This document shows positions 41,632-50,545 of a stretch of 64,000 bases of DNA, piece by piece (position 1 is the first letter of the stretch; each line of letters starts with the position of its first letter). Made by a program: the position numbers and the translations under genes. The stretch covers positions 1,753,501 through 1,817,500 of the forward strand of contig NZ_AP018795.1 of NCBI RefSeq assembly GCF_003966655.1, read 5' to 3'. The notes under the pieces were generated by a model. It was not told where the DNA came from. It saw nothing but the letters and a program-made list of their open reading frames with translations, and made no database searches. Source of the stretch: Acidithiobacillus ferridurans. Lineage in GTDB: Bacteria; Pseudomonadota; Gammaproteobacteria; Acidithiobacillales; Acidithiobacillaceae.

Positions 41632-42363
41632 TTATTGTGTTGGGGTGGAGGTGAGGCGTTGCATGAAAGCATGGGTAAGTGCGGCCCCAGAGGCCGGGTT
41701 CTGGCCGCTGAGGATGAGGCGGTCCGTGACCACATGGCTTTGCCACGGAACACCGACCCTGACCAGGAAGCCTTCCTGCCGGAGCCGGTCTTCGAGGGTA
41801 TAAGGCCAACGCCCGGCCAGCGCTGTTGCCGATTCTTCCGCCGCACTGAAGCAGGTTACCCGTTGCCCCAGGAAAGGCGAACGGTCCGCCCCGCCGCAGG
41901 TGGCGAGGAGTGCTGCGCTGCCGTGGCAGAGGGTGGCGACGGGCTTTGCCGTCGCCAGGCAGTAGCGCAGCAGGCGGTCCATCGCCGGTGCCCGGCAGAG
42001 GTCCATGAGCGGCCCATTGCCGCCGGGAATGAAAACACCGGCCAAGGCGTCCAGATCCTCGCCCGTCAGCGCATTCAAATCAGCAGGTGTGGTTAAGTCC
42101 GTGATCTGTGCCACGGCGTCGCATAACCGGGTGACCTTACGGGTATCGCCCCCAAGAGCGGCGGGCTCGAGACTCTCGGCATCGACCGACGGCCGCACCC
42201 CGCCCGGAGTGGCGACGTGCGGTTGCCATCCTGCTTCGCGCAGTATCTGCCAGGGTGTCACCAGCTCTTCGGCCCAGAATCCGGTAGCCACCTCGGCGCC
42301 GTCATCGAGGCGAAGACGTTGCGCCGCGCTGAGCAGAATGAGGACGAAAGGCCGGATAGTCAT
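41632..42363 (-). CDS. DJ-1/PfpI family protein (type 1 glutamine amidotransferase-like, HchA-like)
   Basis: 243 residues. '[19 protein letters not shown]' and '[13 protein letters not shown]', with the nucleophile elbow CHGSAALL near 145. This subgroup includes deglycase/glyoxalase-like proteins. Eleven bases upstream of rpiA, so co-transcribed. Activity not provable from sequence. Confidence 0.82.
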
Positions 42364-42464
42364 GACCAGAGTTTAGCATGGCCAGCAGGCAAGAAAAGGG
42401 CAACCGCTGCCGGGGCACCGGCTGTTTTCGTGCAGAAATGCGCAGATACCGAGAGACCAGGCGT

Positions 42465-42976
42465 TATCCGTACGGTGCCTGGTCATCATCGGATTTTCGA
42501 TTGCAGGAGGCCGGAGTGGATATTTTCGGGGAAACAAACGCCTTTCTTGCAGACATCTGAAACATGGTTTTTTACGTTAAAAATACCCGCAGATGGTTTT
42601 ATATTTTTTAAAAATTAGCCAGGGAGACTTCCTTTTGGCGCGCGCGTATCACTAATACTATTTACATCAGCCCAAAAATATTTGAGGCAAATCCCTATTG
42701 CTTTTCGCCCGCGCCTGCACTAGTTTTATTATTAGGTAATCATTAGATAGTAATAATATAAATTTATTATATGATTTATGGAAGTGGTGAAAACTGGTGC
42801 CAATGGCGGCCTGCCGCGGGATCGCCGGAGCCTGGGCGCCGTGGTTCGATGGTCCCTGTGCCATGGAGGCTCAGGGAAATCCTGATCTGCATACATGCAG
42901 TGTCGGGAAAAGTAAAACGAATAGTGATCGCTATCCTGTCATATCGCGAATGATCTGACAGTCCGTCAGGGAGAAA
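42465..42976 (+). promoter_or_regulatory. Structured non-coding leader, copy 1 (upstream of cydAB)
   Basis: About 510 bases with no credible gene, highly similar to 48913-49573 in front of cyoA. It contains an 8-bp stem-loop (42726-42753), a 5-bp stem-loop (42849-42864), a CTGCAT/ATGCAG dyad and CTGAC/GTCAG (42955-42969) just before GGGAG. In copy 2 that GGGAG is the ribosome binding site of cyoA; here the reading start has been replaced by an inserted element. Conservation outside genes, with paired changes, argues for a functional RNA or a large regulatory region. Confidence 0.7.
42726..42753 (+). ncRNA. Leader stem-loop, copy 1 (8 bp, 12-base loop)
   Basis: TTATTATT pairs with GATAGTAA through six Watson-Crick and two G-U pairs around the loop AGGTAATCATTA. 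Four positions differ in copy 2, all keeping the pairing. Confidence 0.55.
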
Positions 42977-42980
42977 TAGC

Positions 42981-43300
42981 GTAACTGTTCACCACCCAGT
43001 GTTTTATGGATCGTTTTGATGTGAAATGTTGCAAGCTATCATGCCACAAGGACGATATGAATCAGCCTGACCTGAGCGCGATGGACCATGCTGCCAAGGT
43101 TGATCTGATCCGATTTCTTTTCGCGGAAAATGCGGATCTGAAGTCACGGATAGCCGTACTTGGAGTCCGTTTGGCCAAAGATAGCCACAATTCCAGCAAA
43201 CCGCCGTCCTCGGATGGTCTGCACAAGCCTGCAGCGAAATCTTTTCAGGGAGAAACCCTGCTGTCCGCCTTGGAACGACTGCGCCCTGGTGAACAGTTAC
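42981..43300 (+). mobile_element. 320-bp miniature element derived from an IS66-family insertion sequence
   Basis: Perfect 14-bp terminal inverted repeats: GTAACTGTTCACCA at 42981-42994 and its complement at 43287-43300. Inside is the first part of an IS66 transposase gene that stops at the right repeat, so this is an internal-deletion derivative without its own transposase. No clear 8-bp target duplication is seen. It separates the leader from cydA. Confidence 0.8.
43057..43300 (+). pseudogene. IS66-family transposase (TnpC), N-terminal remnant
   Basis: About 80 codons: helical 'LIRFLFAENADLKSRIAVLG' and the signature NSSKPPSSDG of IS66 transposases; the catalytic domain is absent. ATG 43057 has AAGGA upstream. 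The raw frame runs a few codons past the right inverted repeat into the cydA leader. Confidence 0.85.
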
Positions 43301-43342
43301 CATCAGCCATCTTGCTGACCTTATGCGTTGAAGGAGTTTGTT

Positions 43343-44797
43343 ATGCTTGTTGAAAATACATTACCTATCTTGTTGGATCGACTCGATTTTGCCTGGATTA
43401 CCTCCATGCATATTCTCTGGACGCCGCTGACCATTGGGGTGTCCTGGATCCTTTTCGGGCTGGAAGTAGCCTGGCTGCGTTCTGGAGATGAACGATGGTA
43501 TCGTCTTGAACGCTTTTTTGAAAAAATCTTTATTGTCAATTTCGGAGCCGGTGTGGCTACCGGTGTCACCATGGAAATGGCCTTCGGCATACTCTATGGG
43601 CCGTTCGCGCAAGCCGTTGGTCCCTTCTTTGGGAATATTCTGGGCTTCGAAACCATTACCGCCTTTATGTATGAAGCTGGTTTTATTGGCCTCATGGTTT
43701 TTGGTTGGCATAAAATTGGTAAAGGCATGCATTTGTTTTCAACCTTCAACGTAGCATTGGCCTCCAGTTTGTCGGCTTTCTGGATTCTGGTTGCCAATGG
43801 CTGGATGCAGACTCCCGATGGTGTCGTGCTGAAACACGGTCTGTTTCTGGTGACGAATTGGTGGAGTGCGATTTTTAATGAAAGTAATGAGTGGGGCTTT
43901 CCTCATATGTGGGTGGCTACCATGATCTTGGGCTTTTTTGTGCTGGCTGGGACTAGTGCCTGGTTTATTCTCAAGAATCGTCACGCCGATTTGTTCGTCA
44001 AGATGTTGAAGCCTACCATTCTGGCGTTATTGATCGCGATGCCGATACAAATCTGGTTAGGCGATAGTCTGGGCGTGGATGTGGCCCATAGTGAACCGAC
44101 CTCACTGGCCGCCATGGAAGGGCATTACCATGCTTATCTACCCGATGGTAAACCGAACACTTCCTGGAATCTGATTGCCATTCCCAATGCTGCCAACGAT
44201 GGAAGTCTGTTTTCAATCCGTATTCCCCATGTATTAAGTCTGCTGGAAACACACACCTTAAATGGCGTGGTTCCCGGCCTGGATCAGTTTCCCGCAAAAG
44301 ACCGTCCGGATGTCTGGGTACCTTTCTATTCATTCCGGGTCATGGTGGCTATCGGTTTCTTGCTGTTCTTTATGGCGTTATGGGGTACCTCCCTCATCCT
44401 GCGCGGACAACTGACTGTGGCGGGGTTGCGGAAGCGTCCATGGTTTCTCAGGGCTATGGTGTTGGGTGGGTTCCTGCCCTATCTTGCCGTCTGGACTGGC
44501 TGGTGGACCCGTGAAGTGGGGCGTCAGCCCTGGATAGTTTACAACATTATGCGTACCTATGAGGGTGTCAGCCACATGGGTCTCGGTGAAGAAATCGCCT
44601 GGTTTGCCGGGTATGTGGTATTTGAGCTGACCGTCTGGGCGGGTGCCTGGTATTTCTTCTCCCGCGTGATCCGCAAGGGGCCTGATCTGGAAAGTCCCTT
44701 ACCGGGTGCGCCAGAACAGTATGCCGATCAGGAAGATGCCGGTGGTGGGCTAGCGAAACCGATATTTGCCAAACCCAGCTTTGGAAAATCTTACTAA
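43343..44797 (+). CDS. cydA: Cytochrome bd-type quinol oxidase subunit I
   Basis: 484 residues, about nine membrane helices; heme ligands fall in the N-terminal 'SMHILWTPLTIG' (His) and in 'MEMAFGILYG'/'KNRHADL' regions; 'GRQPW' follows the quinol loop. The loop is short, so it belongs to the CIO/bd short-Q-loop group. Accepts electrons from quinol and reduces O2. ATG 43343 has AAGGAG at good spacing, only 42 bases after the IS66-derived element. Confidence 0.94.
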   Translation: MLVENTLPILLDRLDFAWITSMHILWTPLTIGVSWILFGLEVAWLRSGDERWYRLERFFEKIFIVNFGAGVATGVTMEMAFGILYGPFAQAVGPFFGNILGFETITAFMYEAGFIGLMVFGWHKIGKGMHLFSTFNVALASSLSAFWILVANGWMQTPDGVVLKHGLFLVTNWWSAIFNESNEWGFPHMWVATMILGFFVLAGTSAWFILKNRHADLFVKMLKPTILALLIAMPIQIWLGDSLGVDVAHSEPTSLAAMEGHYHAYLPDGKPNTSWNLIAIPNAANDGSLFSIRIPHVLSLLETHTLNGVVPGLDQFPAKDRPDVWVPFYSFRVMVAIGFLLFFMALWGTSLILRGQLTVAGLRKRPWFLRAMVLGGFLPYLAVWTGWWTREVGRQPWIVYNIMRTYEGVSHMGLGEEIAWFAGYVVFELTVWAGAWYFFSRVIRKGPDLESPLPGAPEQYADQEDAGGGLAKPIFAKPSFGKSY

Positions 44798-44885
44798 GCT
44801 CTACCCGTACCCCGCGGTACGCAACGGGTATGTCCTGGAGGCCAAGAGCGGTTTCAAGGGATTTTGATTGAAGGAGTAATACAAT

Positions 44886-45968
44886 ATGTTTGATCTCGCC
44901 AGAATCGCCACCACCTTGACGACGTGGTGGTGGCTGTTACTCAGTCTGATGTTTCTCTTTTTTATTGCCCTGGATGGCGCCGATCTGGGTGCAGGGGTGT
45001 TTGCCCTTTTTTCTCCGGATGAGCAGGAACGGGGTGCCATTATGGCTTCCATGGCTGGCTGGTGGGATGCCAATGAAACCTGGCTGGTCGTCGCCGGCGG
45101 CGTCCTGTTCGGCGCTTTTCCGCTGGTATATGGATCGGCCTTTAATTATCTGATGATTCCACTGATGCTGGCTTTATGGGGCGTGATATGGCGCGCTGTC
45201 GCTTTTGAATTCCATGTGCATGCAGTTGGAAGCAAGCGGTTCTGGGGCTGGGCCTTTGCTGGGGGCAGCTTTCTCGCACCTTTCGGGGCAGGCATCGCCT
45301 TGGGAGCCACTTTGCAGGGATTTCCTATGAAGGCTGGTGCGGCCATGGCCAAAGGGGCTCCGGGCCTTTTTGTAAATTCGCCAGTTCCACATTTTACCGG
45401 GACGGCACTTACTTTTCTGACACCTTTCAGCCTGTTAACGGGTTTTGGAGCGGTCATTGCGGCCGGACTGGCAGGAGGTCTTTACCTGAGTGCACGCTTT
45501 GAAAAAGGTGATCCGATCAATGTCAAAGCACAGCGCTGGACCACCCTTTTTTCCTACCTTGCCTTAGCGGCAATCGTCGTCACGCTGGTATGGTCCTATG
45601 CCATATTCCCCTGGGCAGCGGCAAAATGGACTGGTCCTTATTGGTGGGTATGGGCTTTGTGGCTCTTGGTGGTCCTATTTTTCGCCTTCAAATCCATGAT
45701 GAATCATTCCATGCAGCGGGATTTTCTCGCGCTGCTCTGGGGTGAAGGGGTTGTGGTACTCCTGTGGTTTGCTATGTGGGCCACGATGTATCCCTACATT
45801 GTTCCTGAAACCTGGACCATCCAGGCGGCTGCCAATCCAGCTAACTCCATTGCCGTGTTTACGTTGTTCATGACCGGATTTGTACCCATCATGATTATGT
45901 ACAACGCCTATCAAATCTGGGTGTTCCGTGGTCGCACCACGAAAATGGCCAGTTACGGCGAGCATTAA
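44886..45968 (+). CDS. cydB: Cytochrome bd-type quinol oxidase subunit II
   Basis: 360 residues, about nine helices. 'DGADLGAGVF' near 30 and 'WDANETWLVVAGG' are conserved in CydB. Follows cydA after 88 bases with AAGGAG. No cydX-like small gene is seen next to it. Confidence 0.94.
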   Translation: MFDLARIATTLTTWWWLLLSLMFLFFIALDGADLGAGVFALFSPDEQERGAIMASMAGWWDANETWLVVAGGVLFGAFPLVYGSAFNYLMIPLMLALWGVIWRAVAFEFHVHAVGSKRFWGWAFAGGSFLAPFGAGIALGATLQGFPMKAGAAMAKGAPGLFVNSPVPHFTGTALTFLTPFSLLTGFGAVIAAGLAGGLYLSARFEKGDPINVKAQRWTTLFSYLALAAIVVTLVWSYAIFPWAAAKWTGPYWWVWALWLLVVLFFAFKSMMNHSMQRDFLALLWGEGVVVLLWFAMWATMYPYIVPETWTIQAAANPANSIAVFTLFMTGFVPIMIMYNAYQIWVFRGRTTKMASYGEH

Positions 45969-46023
45969 AACTTGTGGGGGAGGGTAGACTTTTACTGTCC
46001 ATCCTCCATTGCAACTGGCGGTT

Positions 46024-46293
46024 TCAATTTTGAAGTGCAATACTATCGTTTAACTCTTTGATCTCATTTGCCATTACTTCTGATGGCGTTAGAAAACCCA
46101 AGGATTTTCTTGGTCGATTATTCATCTCCTCGGCGACTTTGGTCAAGTACTGCTGAGAGTATTGCGATAAATCCGTTCCTTTAGGAAAATACTGCCGCAG
46201 CAGTCCGTTGGTATTTTCATTGGCCAGGCGCTGCCAAGGGATGTGGGGGTCGGCAAAGTAGACCCGCAGATGGGTGCGTTTTTCCAGATCCTC
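46024..46293 (-). pseudogene. IS30-family transposase, C-terminal remnant
   Basis: 89 residues with 'PWQRLANENTNGLLRQYFPKG' and 'NNRPRKSLGFLTPSEVM', the conserved end of IS30 transposases including the catalytic Glu of the DDE triad. A TGA upstream and the lack of the rest show it is a fragment. Confidence 0.88.
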
Positions 46294-46431
46294 TCAAGAA
46301 ACACTTTTTATGGTTTTGAATACATTGTAGTTACGAAGCGCCAATATCACCCGGAACCAGTCTCATGCCCATCTTTTCGGCACGTTGAGCCAGTTGCCGT
46401 AGCACCCGTTCTCGGTAGCGATCTTCATGTG

Positions 46432-47290
46432 GCCCCCTCCGAACCGACCATCCGGCGTGTCTTGCAAGGGGTCGATGTGGATGCGCTGGATGCGGCGATC
46501 GGCGCCTGGCACTGGGTACGGCGGGCTTTGAAGCCGTGGCCGTTGATGGCAAAGTCCTCAAAGGTGTCGTGCGTGCAGAGGGAACTCAGGTGCATCTGCT
46601 CAGCGTGTTCCTGCATGGACAGGGAGTCACCATCGCGCAAAAGGAAATCGCCCGGAAAACCAACGAAATTCTAGAACTGCGCAACCTGCTCTCGGATGTC
46701 GACATCACGGGCAAGGTCGTCACTGCCGATGCCCTGCATACCCAGCGGGAGACGGCCCGCTTCCTCGTCGAAGACAAAAAAGCTGATTATCTCTATCCGG
46801 GATGATTACGCCTTCGGACCCACCAGCCTGACCCCAGATCGTGCCACTCCCAAAAATCTGTTGGGCTTGGTCCGTGGCCATTGGGAAATTGAAAACCGAA
46901 ACCATCATGTCCGCGACGCCACTTTCCACGAGGACCTCTCCCAAGTTCGCACCCAGAACGGACCCTGTAGGATGGCGATCTTGCGCGAACTGGCCATGAG
47001 CATCCTGCGCCTCACCGGCGTCAAGAACATCGCCAAAGCGTGTCGGGATTTCGCCGCCAGCGCATCTAACACTCTCCGTCGACTCGGATACTGAGCCGCC
47101 ACCACGGGGTTTACCTATCCGGAAATGCCTCCGGAGGGCAAGCCGCGTCCGCCAGCCACCCCATCCACGATTCCGCACCAAAAACAGCCTGAAAATGCCG
47201 CATTTCCACCAACACAGTTCCTCAAGCCACCACTAAAATCAGCGGCAGCAAGCCTCTGCTACTATATCTGGCGAGCTTGACGGAGCCCTG
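46432..47290 (+). pseudogene. ISAs1-family transposase, decayed copy 1
   Basis: Three pieces in changing frames: 'APSEPTIRRVLQGVDVDALDAAIGAW', then AVDGKVLKGV...HLLSVFLHGQG...VTADALHTQRETA (DDE core), then after an internal deletion at about 46795 the C-terminal part 'LGLVRGHWEIENRNHHVRDATF'. The right end is at 47290 (GAGCCCTG). The minus strand at 46331-46430 may hold the tail of another transposase ('RERVLRQLAQRAEKMGM'), which I cannot assign. Confidence 0.8.
46795..47290. repeat. 496-bp direct repeat of the ISAs1 3' part, first copy
   Basis: Nearly identical to 48416-48911 in the same orientation (one visible change in the terminal ten bases). The two copies bracket hdeD and the broken regulator gene. 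Confidence 0.9.
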
Positions 47291-47394
47291 TGTGCGAGCT
47301 ATAAACTGCATAACGGTATTTCGTGTGGATGAATACGATTTCACCCTTGAATTAAGGATGCTGTGTAATAGCGCCGATAAAAGGAGGTGTCAAT

Positions 47395-48009
47395 ATGAAT
47401 TCACAAGCATCAATCCATCCAGCCCGCCTGACCCTGTTCTCCTGGCCTTTACTCGCCTCTCGGGGTGTTGCCGCATTATTGTTTGTAATTGCATCACTGA
47501 TTGCTTTTGGCGAAACCATTACTTTGCTGGTTTGGTTTTTTGCCATTTACGTGTTTTTTGATAGCGGTTATTCCGCAATGCGTCTTGCCCAGAAAGGGAG
47601 TGGCGCCTGTCCAAAAGTTTTGATTGCCATTAAAGCCGTCATCGGGATCGCGGCTGGTATCGCGGTCATTGTTCTTTCACAGGGTGTCAGTATGTTGCCT
47701 ACATTACTGACCATTTTTGCCTGGGTGGCGATTGTTGGTGTGATTGAAGGCATTTGGGTGCTGCGTAATGTGCGCAATAAAGAAGCGGTGTTGATTATTG
47801 GTTCTACTGCTTATCTGGCCCTGGCTGTTGCCCTGCAATTCATCTTTGCTTTGGCGCCGGATGCCGGTCCTTCCGTATATAACTGGATCATTATCGGCTT
47901 TTCTGCCGCATTTGCTGCAGCTATGTTCGGTATGGTCTGGGCCATGCGTCGTAACCTTCTAAAGATGGATGATGGTACATCGGCCTCCGCCCAGGCACAT
48001 TCTGCCTGA
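47395..48009 (+). CDS. HdeD/DUF308-family acid-resistance membrane protein
   Basis: 204 residues, six hydrophobic helices in three pairs, with 'RGVAALLFVIASLIAFGETITLLVWFFAIYVFFDSGY' pattern in the first repeat, as in HdeD. ATG follows AAGGAGG. E. coli HdeD helps survival at low pH and high cell density; the role here is inferred from family and habitat. Isolated between insertion-sequence remnants. Confidence 0.8.
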   Translation: MNSQASIHPARLTLFSWPLLASRGVAALLFVIASLIAFGETITLLVWFFAIYVFFDSGYSAMRLAQKGSGACPKVLIAIKAVIGIAAGIAVIVLSQGVSMLPTLLTIFAWVAIVGVIEGIWVLRNVRNKEAVLIIGSTAYLALAVALQFIFALAPDAGPSVYNWIIIGFSAAFAAAMFGMVWAMRRNLLKMDDGTSASAQAHSA

Positions 48010-48131
48010 ATTAACCAACACTGTGCAGGAAGCAATCGGTTATTTCTGCAGTGGTCTGATGATCATCATTATCAGGAGTTGCACGGTAAGGAGTGTGGCT
48101 CTTGTTATATGTAAAAAATAGGGGAAGACCC

Positions 48132-48296
48132 ATGGTATTGAGCAAAGCCACCAAACAAGCCCTGCGCGGCCTGATATATATTGTCGCATAGCAGCGCGGC
48201 GAGCCGGTACTTAGTCGTGAAATTGCCGATTATCTCGGGGTTCCCGTTCAGTGTATCACCAAAATTATGCGGAGGCTCGCCAAGTGTGGATTTCTT
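48132..48296 (+). pseudogene. Rrf2-family transcriptional regulator, broken
   Basis: The first 55 codons read as the Rrf2 winged helix: 'LSKATKQALRGLIYIVA', an in-frame TAG, then 'SREIADYLGVPVQCITKIMRRLAKCGFLEA'. The gene then stops at the ISAs1 fragment. Rrf2 regulators (NsrR, IscR and relatives) often sense NO or redox state through an iron-sulfur cluster; the cysteines would have been downstream and are lost. Confidence 0.8.
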
Positions 48297-48911
48297 GAGG
48301 CCGCTTTGAATATCGCAAAATCATCGTTGCTACCTGGGCAACCGGCATCCATTTTCCGCATGTCGGACAAGCTTTCCTGATCCAACGGTCCACCGTAAAC
48401 AGCAAAGATGGCCTCATCCGGGATGATTACGCCTTCGGACCCACCAGCCTGACCCCAGATCGTGCCACTCCCAAAAATCTGTTGGGCTTGGTCCGTGGCC
48501 ATTGGGAAATTGAAAACCGAAACCATCATGTCCGCGACGCCACTTTCCACGAGGACCTCTCCCAAGTTCGCACCCAGAACGGACCCTGTAGGATGGCGAT
48601 CTTGCGCGAACTGGCCATGAGCATCCTGCGCCTCACCGGCGTCAAGAACATCGCCAAAGCGTGTCGGGATTTCGCCGCCAGCGCATCTAACACTCTCCGT
48701 CGACTCGGATACTGAGCCGCCACCACGGGGTTTACCTATCCGGAAATGCCTCCGGAGGGCAAGCCGCGTCCGCCAGCCACCCCATCCACGATTCCGCACC
48801 AAAAACAGCCTGAAAATGCCGCATTTCCACCAACACAGTTCCTCAAGCCACCACTAAAATCAGCGGCAGCAAGCCTCTGCTACTATATCTGGCGAGCTTG
48901 ACAGAGCCCTG
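48297..48911 (+). pseudogene. ISAs1-family transposase, C-terminal remnant (copy 2)
   Basis: Begins 'GRFEYRKIIVATWATGIHFPHVGQAFLIQR', continues through 'DDYAFGPTSLTPDRA' and the C-terminal block shared with copy 1, and ends with the family C-terminus 'SNTLRRLGY'. It keeps the central part missing from copy 1. The right end CAGAGCCCTG (to 48911) directly abuts leader copy 2. Confidence 0.85.
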
Positions 48912-49082
48912 CTATCCGTACGGTGCCTGGTCATCATCGGATTTTCGATTGCAGGAGGCCGGGGTGGATATTTTCGGGGAAACAAACGCCGTTCTTGCAG
49001 ACATCTGAAACATGGTTTTTTACGTTAAAAATACCCACAGATGGTTTTATATTTTTTAAAAATCAGCCAGGGAAACTTCCTT

Positions 49083-49240
49083 GTGAGCTTCCAGGCATGA
49101 ACATTAAATTATGCTAATAATCAAATATACAGTTTGTGGTGGTGTTATATTTCATGAGTGAATATTAACCAACTGTCTGTTCCACCGGATAGTTTACAGT
49201 TGCACATCTATAAGATAACGGTAATATTATGATTTATCTT
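49083..49240. other. 158-bp segment present only in leader copy 2
   Basis: AT-rich, without a gene or clear inverted repeats at its ends; CTT occurs at both junctions. Either an insertion in copy 2 or a deletion in copy 1 between short repeats. Confidence 0.6.
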
Positions 49241-49332
49241 TTGGGCGCGCGCGTATCACTAATACTATTTACATAAGCCCAAAAATATTTGAGGCAAATC
49301 TCTATTGCTTTGCGCCCCCGCCTGCACTAGTT

Positions 49333-49360
49333 TTACTGCCAGGTAATCAATAGGCAGTAA
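49333..49360 (+). ncRNA. Leader stem-loop, copy 2 (8 bp, 12-base loop)
   Basis: TTACTGCC pairs perfectly with GGCAGTAA around AGGTAATCAATA. Compared with copy 1, two pairs are replaced on both sides and two G-U pairs become G-C. Confidence 0.55.
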
Positions 49361-49579
49361 TAGTATAAATTTATATGATTTATGGAAGTGGTGAAAACTG
49401 GTGCCAATGGCGGCCTGCCGCGGAATCGCCGGAGCCCGGGCGCCGTGGTTCGGTGGCCGCTGTGCCGTGGAAGCCCATGGAAATCCTGATCTGCATGCAG
49501 TGTCGGAAAAGGTAATCGGATAGTGATCGCTATCCTGTCATATCGCGGATGGTCTGAAATCCGTCAGGGAGAAATGTCA

Positions 49580-50545
49580 ATGCAAGTGAAGTGGAGGAAT
49601 AACCTTAAAAACGGGTGCCGCCATGCCGCCCTCGCGCCGATTCTGTTGCTCAGTGGCTGCGCGGGTAGTCCCTTTTGGATATTCGATCCCAAAGGGTTGA
49701 TGGCTGATACCAACCTGTTTTATCTGCTGGTGGATGTCGGGATCATGGCCAGCATCGTCGGCGTGACGGCGCTCCTGGTGATCTGGTTCATGTGGCGCTA
49801 CCAGAAGGGCAAAAACCGGGGGAAATATGACCCCACCTGGTCCCATTCCAACACCATTGAAGTGGTTGTCTGGGGGATCCCCATCATTGCTGTCGGCTTT
49901 TTGTCCTATTTTGCGGTAACCGGCACTTTCGAGATAAATCCATATAATCCGACGGTGATTACCAACCATCTGAAACCCGTCAGTGATCCGGTCGAGGTGG
50001 ATGTCATCGCGACCGACTGGCAGTGGCTTTTTGTATACCCGCAGTATCATATGGCCGTGGCCAACGAACTGGTGCTGCCGGCGCATACCCCGGTATTTTT
50101 CCGTCTGACCTCCTCTGCGGTGACCACGACATTCTTCATTCCACAACTGGTGGGCATGATCGACGTAATGCCCGGCATGCGTACGAAAAACGCCCTGGAA
50201 AGCAACCATGTCGGGGAATACCAGGGCATCGCTTCGGACTATGCCGGCGCGGGCACCTCCTGGATGACCTTCAAGACCAGAATAGTGAAGTCGGCCGACT
50301 TCCGCGAGTGGGTGCGGAAGGTGCAGCAATCTCCGACATCCATGACCTACGCCAGCTTCAATGACTACGCCGACCCTTATATCAATGTGCATCATAAGGT
50401 GGCCTATTTCTCGTCGGTGCCGGACGGTTTGTTCGACCATGTCGTCGACGAGGTCATGAAGGGTAAAACCTGGCCCATCCCGCCGATGATGACGGAAAAC
50501 ATGGTGGCGTATATGCAGAAGCAGAACGCCGAACACCGCGACTAA
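49580..50545 (+). CDS. cyoA: Cytochrome bo3-type quinol oxidase subunit II
   Basis: 321 residues. Lipoprotein signal with lipobox LLSGC near residue 25, two membrane helices, then a cupredoxin domain 'DWQWLFVYPQY' and 'TSSAVTTTFFIPQLVGMIDVMPGM'. The CuA ligands of cytochrome c oxidases are missing, as in quinol oxidases. ATG 49580 has GGGAG 8 bases before; ATG 49574 is too close to it. Confidence 0.93.
   Translation: MQVKWRNNLKNGCRHAALAPILLLSGCAGSPFWIFDPKGLMADTNLFYLLVDVGIMASIVGVTALLVIWFMWRYQKGKNRGKYDPTWSHSNTIEVVVWGIPIIAVGFLSYFAVTGTFEINPYNPTVITNHLKPVSDPVEVDVIATDWQWLFVYPQYHMAVANELVLPAHTPVFFRLTSSAVTTTFFIPQLVGMIDVMPGMRTKNALESNHVGEYQGIASDYAGAGTSWMTFKTRIVKSADFREWVRKVQQSPTSMTYASFNDYADPYINVHHKVAYFSSVPDGLFDHVVDEVMKGKTWPIPPMMTENMVAYMQKQNAEHRD

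Follow-up and report, generated by a model that had tools for sequence, protein, structure and literature searches.

A second copy of the cyo promoter region precedes an acquired cydAB operon in Acidithiobacillus ferridurans

We analysed a stretch of 64,000 nucleotides of the Acidithiobacillus ferridurans genome (assembly GCF_003966655.1, contig NZ_AP018795.1, forward-strand positions 1,753,501 to 1,817,500; the window, whose own numbering is used throughout), in which one and the same non-coding leader stands before two operons for terminal quinol oxidases, cydAB (bd oxidase) and cyoABCD (bo3 oxidase). This leader is the cyoABCD promoter together with its 5′ untranslated region (5′UTR), and it has probably been captured by the acquired cydAB operon; the old RNA part of the copy would then have decayed, and hairpins would have been built in it, most simply by template-switch mutation. 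For comparison we used 17 Acidithiobacillus genomes, namely that of the window (G000) and 16 relatives, and 12 further family genomes from other genera.

Results

Organization of the locus

Both copies of the leader lie where the initial annotation had placed them. Copy 1 (the cyd copy; 42465..42980, + strand) is native on its left side, where the DJ-1 and rpiA genes adjoin it; it is a mosaic that lacks about 150 nt at ~42631 and ends beside a fragment of an insertion sequence (IS). Copy 2 (the cyo copy; 48913..49579, + strand) starts right after a transposase remnant and lies directly before cyoA, the first gene of cyoABCD (49580..50545, + strand; start set by similarity, with an in-frame ATG also at 49574). 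Two properties of the pair had gone unmentioned in that annotation. First, identity differs sharply between block 1 (97% over 173 nt, 42465-42637 and 48913-49085) and block 2 (89-92% over ~340 nt), the two blocks meeting at the gap where the cyd copy is without ~150 nt (~49086-49236 of the cyo copy). Second, copy 2 adjoins cyoA directly and an IS66-type fragment separates copy 1 from cydA. The gap of copy 1 coincides with the drop in identity from 97% to ~89%. An open reading frame (ORF) of 35 codons is, read by eye, open in both copies (42778-42885 and 49382-49489) despite many changes. The rest of the genome gave no more than short chance matches to the leader.

Between the two copies lies an island composed of cydAB, a membrane-protein gene and IS fragments, two transposase remnants among them. 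The fragment beside copy 1 (42981..43241, + strand), to which matches in other genomes begin at 42981, is one that we take to be of IS66 type, and an ORF with a DUF6444 match (43006-43353, + strand) begins inside it. It is followed by cydA (43343..44797, + strand) and by cydB (44886..45968, + strand), which belongs to the same acquired block. The transposase-gene remnants, presumably ISAs1-type, lie at 46795..47290 and 48416..48911 (both + strand), the latter abutting leader copy 2; they share 300 identical bases (46795-47094 and 48416-48715) and the rest looks alike by eye, and the first of them has no Pfam match.

The membrane-protein gene at 47395-48009 has no Pfam match either, and we assume it to be HdeD-like. 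Between it and the second transposase remnant, a short fragment with an in-frame stop was seen by eye (48133-48320), which we presume to resemble the start of an Rrf2-type regulator. ORFs of 125-145 codons similar to the membrane-protein gene lie between the promoter and cyoA in G011, G012 and G014 (L063, L064 and L066); the cyo leader of G004 holds an ORF of 107 codons and that of G003 a 56-residue match to the same gene. We do not claim that the mid-leader comes from the end of the presumed HdeD-like gene of G011, since the match is weak (53 nt, 72%, E 0.005). A megablast search of a plasmid set returned no match to the island, and a plasmid origin was rejected on that result.

Distribution of the leader and of cydAB in Acidithiobacillus

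Outside the window the leader is a single-copy element. A DNA search of the 29 family genomes (E 1e-5) returned homologues in 16 of the 17 genus genomes and in none of the 12 genomes of other genera, and an exact match to CCCAAAAATATTTGNGG, which adds G016, is present in 17/17 genus genomes: one per relative and two in G000. The leader of each of the 16 relatives has DJ-1/rpiA on one side and cyoA on the other, an interval that the island splits in the window. The DJ-1/PfpI-family gene itself (41632..42363, - strand; Pfam PF01965/PF17124) holds the same place in 16/16 relatives and so was the original left-hand neighbour of this promoter region. Two copies are therefore unique to this genome among the 17; as the relatives have one each in the same synteny, the ancestral state was a single cyo promoter region, from which the arrangement in the window is derived.

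The initial annotation had looked to a covariance-model search for more copies before respiratory genes. Our model of the 3′ part of the leader (R1), built without copy 1 and used to score the 150 best candidates per genome, gave a single strong match in each relative, located at cyoA, and two in G000 (E <1e-14). Among these candidates in the 17 genus genomes there was no strong match before other genes and so no wider gene set; in the other genera, four weak matches were returned (E 0.5-0.9).

The oxidase genes of the island have a different distribution. CydA is 94, 93 and 92% identical in protein sequence to homologues in G016, G010 and G015, and the cydAB block has 85-88% DNA identity to stretches of G010, G015, G016 and, partially, G005. 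In the nearest relatives, G006, G007 and G013, the only CydA homologue is 36-37% identical, and G000 also has such a homologue elsewhere. The DNA match of the cydAB block starts at 43320 or 43332 and ends at 45993-46009, which places the leader outside the shared block. We conclude that cydAB was horizontally acquired. In some Acidithiobacillus genomes (G010 and G016) the number of cydA-like matches reaches eight, which suggests that cydAB has spread or been duplicated in the genus more than once.

The promoter and an upstream motif

Both copies carry an intact 17-bp motif, CCCAAAAATATTTGAGG (42671..42687 in copy 1 and 49278..49294 before cyoA, + strand). The motif is near-palindromic; each Acidithiobacillus relative has a single exact match to it, before cyoA, and G013 and G016 each have one extra match with one mismatch, away from cyoA. 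Its first 14 bases are present in five of seven more distant cyo loci, and the motif was not found in 10 further, still more distant cyo loci.

Downstream of the motif we assigned sigma70 boxes by eye: TTGCTT (42698-42703), a 17-nt spacer and TAGTTT (42721-42726) in copy 1, and TTGCTT (49305-49310), 17 nt and TAGTTT (49328-49333) in copy 2 (all + strand). The stretch with the boxes is free of gaps in the alignment of all 18 leader sequences, and the boxes of copy 2 fall within a fragment published from 5′ rapid amplification of cDNA ends (5′RACE): Table 3 of PMC5506826 prints the start-site region of the cyo operon (AFE_0631) of A. ferrooxidans ATCC 23270, and by eye this sequence equals that of G006 and is one base off copy 2. 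The accompanying passages of that paper report that RegA binds the cyo regulatory region, and that rus and tet are the only cases of binding downstream of the -35 box; they also assign sigma54 and sigma70 promoters to the native cyd operon of ATCC 23270. Both operons, cyo and cyd, are described as higher on sulfur in A. ferrooxidans in the part of PMC2754497 that deals with them. A scan for consensus promoters gave three hits against 1.7 expected before cyo and two against 1.5 before cyd, the TTGCTT/TAGTTT pair not among them; with counts this close to expectation the scan is uninformative.

The cyd copy thus keeps the motif, the -35 box, the 17-nt spacing and the -10 box, and, to judge from sequence, transcription of the acquired bd oxidase genes most likely starts at the captured cyo promoter.

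Stems and conserved hairpins of the leader

The initial annotation had read two stems with pair-preserving changes as one RNA control element governing both quinol oxidases. In the two copies themselves the pairing is as described. Stem 1 (42726..42753 and 49333..49360, + strand) has 8/8 pairs in each; two pairs differ between the copies at both of their bases, and two are C-G in one copy and T-G in the other. Stem 2 (42849-42864 and 49453-49468) has 5/5 pairs in each. The probability that stem 1 keeps its eight pairs through six changes in 16 arm positions is ~0.002 if any change is allowed, 0.012 with two-thirds transitions and 0.10-0.16 with transitions only, as observed. Since this value spans 0.002-0.16 by mutation model, stem 1 alone is weak evidence.

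The relatives decide the matter for stem 1. All eight pairs are found in the two copies, G006 and G007, and only 3-6 of 8 in the other 14 of the 18 sequences, so that 59.7% of cells are paired; the initial annotation had itself named stem-breaking changes in homologues as speaking against its proposal. The covariation score of stem 1 was matched by only 6/500 shuffles, a high value that is probably due to copy 1. What is conserved in this region of the genus is the sequence and not the pairing. With the boxes as assigned, the first base of the 5′ arm in copy 2 (49333-49340) is also the last of the -10 box, and the arm ends near the expected transcription start. Copy 1 also offers a new register in this region, TATTATTA/TAATAATA (42727-42734 and 42751-42758).

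Stem 2 fares better in part. It is short, and its region is present in eight of the 18 sequences and absent in 10. The full five pairs are found in the two copies and G007, and four pairs in the other five: the outer pair is a mismatch in G013 and falls in a gap in G011, G012 and G014, and G006 alone breaks an inner pair. The four inner pairs thus hold, through changes, in 7/8 sequences, and the outer pair fails in G011-G014.

The conserved structure of the leader lies further downstream. Two hairpins precede cyoA, hairpin A (GGATAG/CTATCC; 49518..49535, + strand) and hairpin B (GCGGA/TCCGY; 49545..49564, + strand), the latter directly before the ribosome-binding site AGGGAG (49566-49571, + strand, by eye). 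In the 17 single-copy leaders (14 of them distinct, copy 2 included), 154/154 cells of these hairpins are paired; as a control, slid strands gave at most 49%. Within the genus the hairpins vary only from G-C to G-U or from A-U to G-U, never on two sides, and shuffling has no discriminating power here. A wider alignment, made without G005, G010 and G015 of the 16 relatives, added seven of 73 cyo loci (cyoA 74-79% identical), which we take to be from a sister genus. With these included, 96.5% of the cells of hairpin B are paired and the outer pair occurs as G-C, G-U and A-U, with a weak shuffle control (100/500 for two-sided cells, 31/500 for the score; 31-497/500 depending on the measure). Hairpins A (42919-42936) and B (42946-42966) of copy 1 (together 42919..42966, + strand) are degenerate, each broken by the loss of one G-C pair.

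A single RNA element with covarying stems that controls both operons is thus very improbable. The survival of the stem 1 pairs, its covariation score and the inner pairs of stem 2 argue for it; the breakage of stem 1 in most sequences, the position of its 5′ arm at the -10 box and start site (boxes by eye), the pair lost from each conserved 5′UTR hairpin of the cyd copy and the confinement of strong R1 matches to cyoA argue against it. The two oxidases do share an upstream element, which makes shared control plausible at the level of the promoter, with no conserved RNA switch. An Rfam scan of the window found no family at the gathering threshold other than one tRNA elsewhere in the window, and at E up to 10 over 42380-43400 it returned two chance matches, the best for copy 1 being a snoRNA family (E 0.11).

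Divergence of the cyd copy

Changes between the copies were polarised with G006, G007 and G013 as outgroups. Block 1 has three derived changes in the cyd copy, one in the cyo copy and 16 shared by both; in block 2 these counts are 27, three and seven. The blocks differ in the proportion of shared to cyd-copy-only changes (Fisher's test, P 9e-6) and of cyd-copy to cyo-copy changes (P 8e-6). The shared derived changes identify the cyd copy as one made within the lineage, and the counts as a whole as a mosaic that evolved fast in block 2.

The two block histories, 16:3 and 7:27 shared to cyd-copy-only changes, meet at the joint of the deletion, as would be expected if block 2 of copy 1 had been brought in by recombination, its donor being a strain or species outside our sample in which a cyd-linked copy had existed for longer. 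Seven derived changes in block 2 are however shared with the cyo copy of the same genome, and neither the 17 genus genomes nor the plasmid set (megablast) held a closer relative of copy 1; one exact 25-mer specific to copy 1 was not found in a viral set. We regard such recombination as rather unlikely.

The changes are unevenly placed with respect to what the genus conserves. From the motif to the -10 box, one of 36 genus-invariant columns is changed in the cyd copy, compared with six of 22 in the next 62 nt (P 0.0095); in the tail it is five of 40, two of them past the IS joint. This bears on whether the cyd copy might be a functionless relic left by the duplication. Its 27 derived changes against three, the pairs lost in hairpins A and B, the ~150 nt deleted and a promoter part no less changed per base would all suit a relic; the intact motif, -35 box, 17-nt spacing and -10 box and the sparing of invariant promoter positions relative to those just downstream would not, and we think it unlikely that the copy is inert.

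Hairpin formation in the cyd copy

The fast-changing part of the cyd copy folds better than expected. Downstream of the promoter, copy 1 (a piece that included 10 bases of the IS fragment) has a folding z-score of -3.83, reached by 0/200 shuffles, and copy 2 one of -1.24. For comparison, simulated descendants of a reconstructed ancestor received random changes of the same spectrum as copy 1, 22 substitutions and four insertions each. The minimum free energy (MFE) of copy 1 is -91.0 kcal/mol, compared with -76.4 ± 4.7 after random change, and was reached by 4/1500 simulations. When pairs within 45 nt were counted, copy 1 was reached by 4/1000 simulations on the RNA strand with G-U pairs allowed, by 1/1000 on the reverse strand and by 0/1000 with Watson-Crick pairs only. 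The corresponding numbers are 6, 0 and 0 of 1000 without the stem 1 region, and 6, 0 and 0 of 600 with a stricter ancestor (18 substitutions). As controls, the branches to copy 2, G006, G007 and G013 showed no excess folding (z between -1.3 and 0.3), though three of the four have little power given their few substitutions (two, six and four, compared with 33 for G013).

The gain is also visible as perfect inverted repeats. Copy 1 has 10 perfect arm pairs of at least 6 nt, whereas the ancestor has four and the simulations 2.6 ± 1.35 (0/1000 reach copy 1), and it has 15 of at least 5 nt, compared with 7.6 ± 2.5 simulated (6/1000). These arm pairs are not independent, as several overlap in an A+T-rich stretch. 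Beyond the latter there are three new perfect 6-nt pairs: GAGCCT/AGGCTC and TCCCTG/CAGGGA (42828..42877, + strand), which are absent from the ancestor's perfect arms and changed in both arms, and CTGTCA/TGACAG (42936-42961, + strand), changed in one arm. The new hairpins differ from hairpins A and B, and none was found in those relatives with which copy 1 was compared. The test was devised after the fold of copy 1 had been seen, and it becomes less strict if mutation was clustered, since mutants were drawn regardless of clustering. The gain of hairpins in the cyd copy beyond chance is statistically clear. The initial annotation's view that the changes reflect selection on RNA structure thus survives to the extent that changes in the cyd copy favour pairing above chance over 250 nt downstream of the promoter; it does not survive for stem 1, which is not conserved.

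Selection could nonetheless have acted anew, for a structured 5′UTR that governs RNA stability or read-through into cydAB, with the new hairpins functional. The MFE, the shuffle z-score and the excess of perfect arms in copy 1, with no excess folding on the four control branches, are what this would predict. The gains with Watson-Crick pairs only and on the reverse strand are, however, at least as strong as that on the RNA strand with G-U pairs, which points to perfection of palindromes in DNA, and the hairpins occur in one sequence only and are conserved in no homologue. We therefore judge new selection for a functional 5′UTR to be quite unlikely. As described in the relevant passages of PMC8794818, template switching at quasi-palindromes creates and mends hairpins without selection. 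The strand symmetry of the gain fits such switching; the changes in both arms fit it less.

Discussion

Capture of the cyo promoter by cydAB would have come about as follows. An island of IS fragments and acquired cydAB settled inside the cyo intergenic region, leaving a leader copy on either side. The left copy, with motif and sigma70 boxes kept, would point through the IS66-type remnant into cydAB; its transcribed part, now parted from cyoA, lost pairs in hairpins A and B and changed fast. Some of these changes perfected local inverted repeats, for which template switching at quasi-palindromes may be the simplest cause. What we observed is the synteny, the number of copies, the lost hairpin pairs and the surplus of derived changes and of new hairpins; from these we infer the route by which the island arrived and the mutational mechanism.

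Several points weigh against this history. The boxes were assigned here on the sequence printed in PMC5506826 and do not come from that paper's own -35, -10 and +1 marks. The -10 box of copy 1 is ~615 nt from cydA and the end of the leader ~360 nt, with the IS fragment between, and promoter activity at cydAB is deduced from the DNA. Counted over all sites, the promoter part of copy 1 (4/59 changed) does not differ from the rest (23/279; P 1.0); with genus-invariant promoter positions spared and no all-site contrast, a retained promoter with a decayed 5′UTR is favoured weakly. Copy 1 has the lowest R1 score (64.8 bits compared with 67.9-101), in part because R1 was built without it. A few of its 27 changes match the base of G006 or G013. 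A weaker measure of hairpin gain, the number of bases in arms of at least 5 nt, was reached by 50/1000 simulations; six of the 11 perfect arm pairs are changed in both arms, unlike the outcome of one template switch; and excess folding may also be expected from selection on structure.

A bolder extension of promoter capture is that the duplicate, its promoter kept, has evolved an array of Watson-Crick hairpins within one species, through either selection or a sudden series of template switches, and is a young regulatory RNA or hairpin-bearing DNA in the making. We consider this unlikely; if it were true, the little-changed sister copy 6.6 kb away would serve as its control.

The locus is of use in several ways. 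In it, nature has put a duplicate of the bo3 oxidase promoter in front of acquired genes for a bd oxidase. It also illustrates a pitfall of covariation between two copies: when one duplicate is constrained and the other is not, changes that keep pairs mimic selection on RNA, and it is the relatives that refute stem 1. Its sister sequences are material for the study of hairpin-building mutation, and the conserved two-hairpin 5′UTR of cyoA and the genus-wide 17-bp motif are testable elements. Full-text literature searches, which covered titles and the openings of abstracts and left most subscription papers outside their coverage, returned no paper that describes either this duplication or an RNA in the cyo leader; PMC10214660, PMC2754497 and PMC7023503 mention cyo and cyd, without this duplication in the passages concerned.

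Among known systems, the closest is the cyo promoter of A. ferrooxidans ATCC 23270, which, as far as the sections of PMC5506826 on it go, has a near-identical start-site fragment and a sigma70 promoter, and is bound by RegA. The window differs in having a second copy, in front of acquired cydAB; for the native cyd operon of ATCC 23270, sigma54 and sigma70 promoters of its own are reported. Rfam's cis-regulatory RNA families resemble the leader in being non-coding leaders with hairpins, but none reaches threshold.

Acquired genes can capture promoters by way of IS elements. The present locus is alike in that an acquired operon is joined to a promoter via IS fragments, and differs in that the promoter is a duplicate of that of the neighbouring host operon and not the IS's own; IS-borne promoters are mentioned in the text of PMC10214660. 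The new hairpins, finally, resemble the template-switch mutations described in the corresponding part of PMC8794818, with clustered substitutions and small insertions that perfect inverted repeats, mostly Watson-Crick; they differ in that several hairpins lie within 250 nt of one duplicate, with more than half of the perfect arm pairs changed on both sides.

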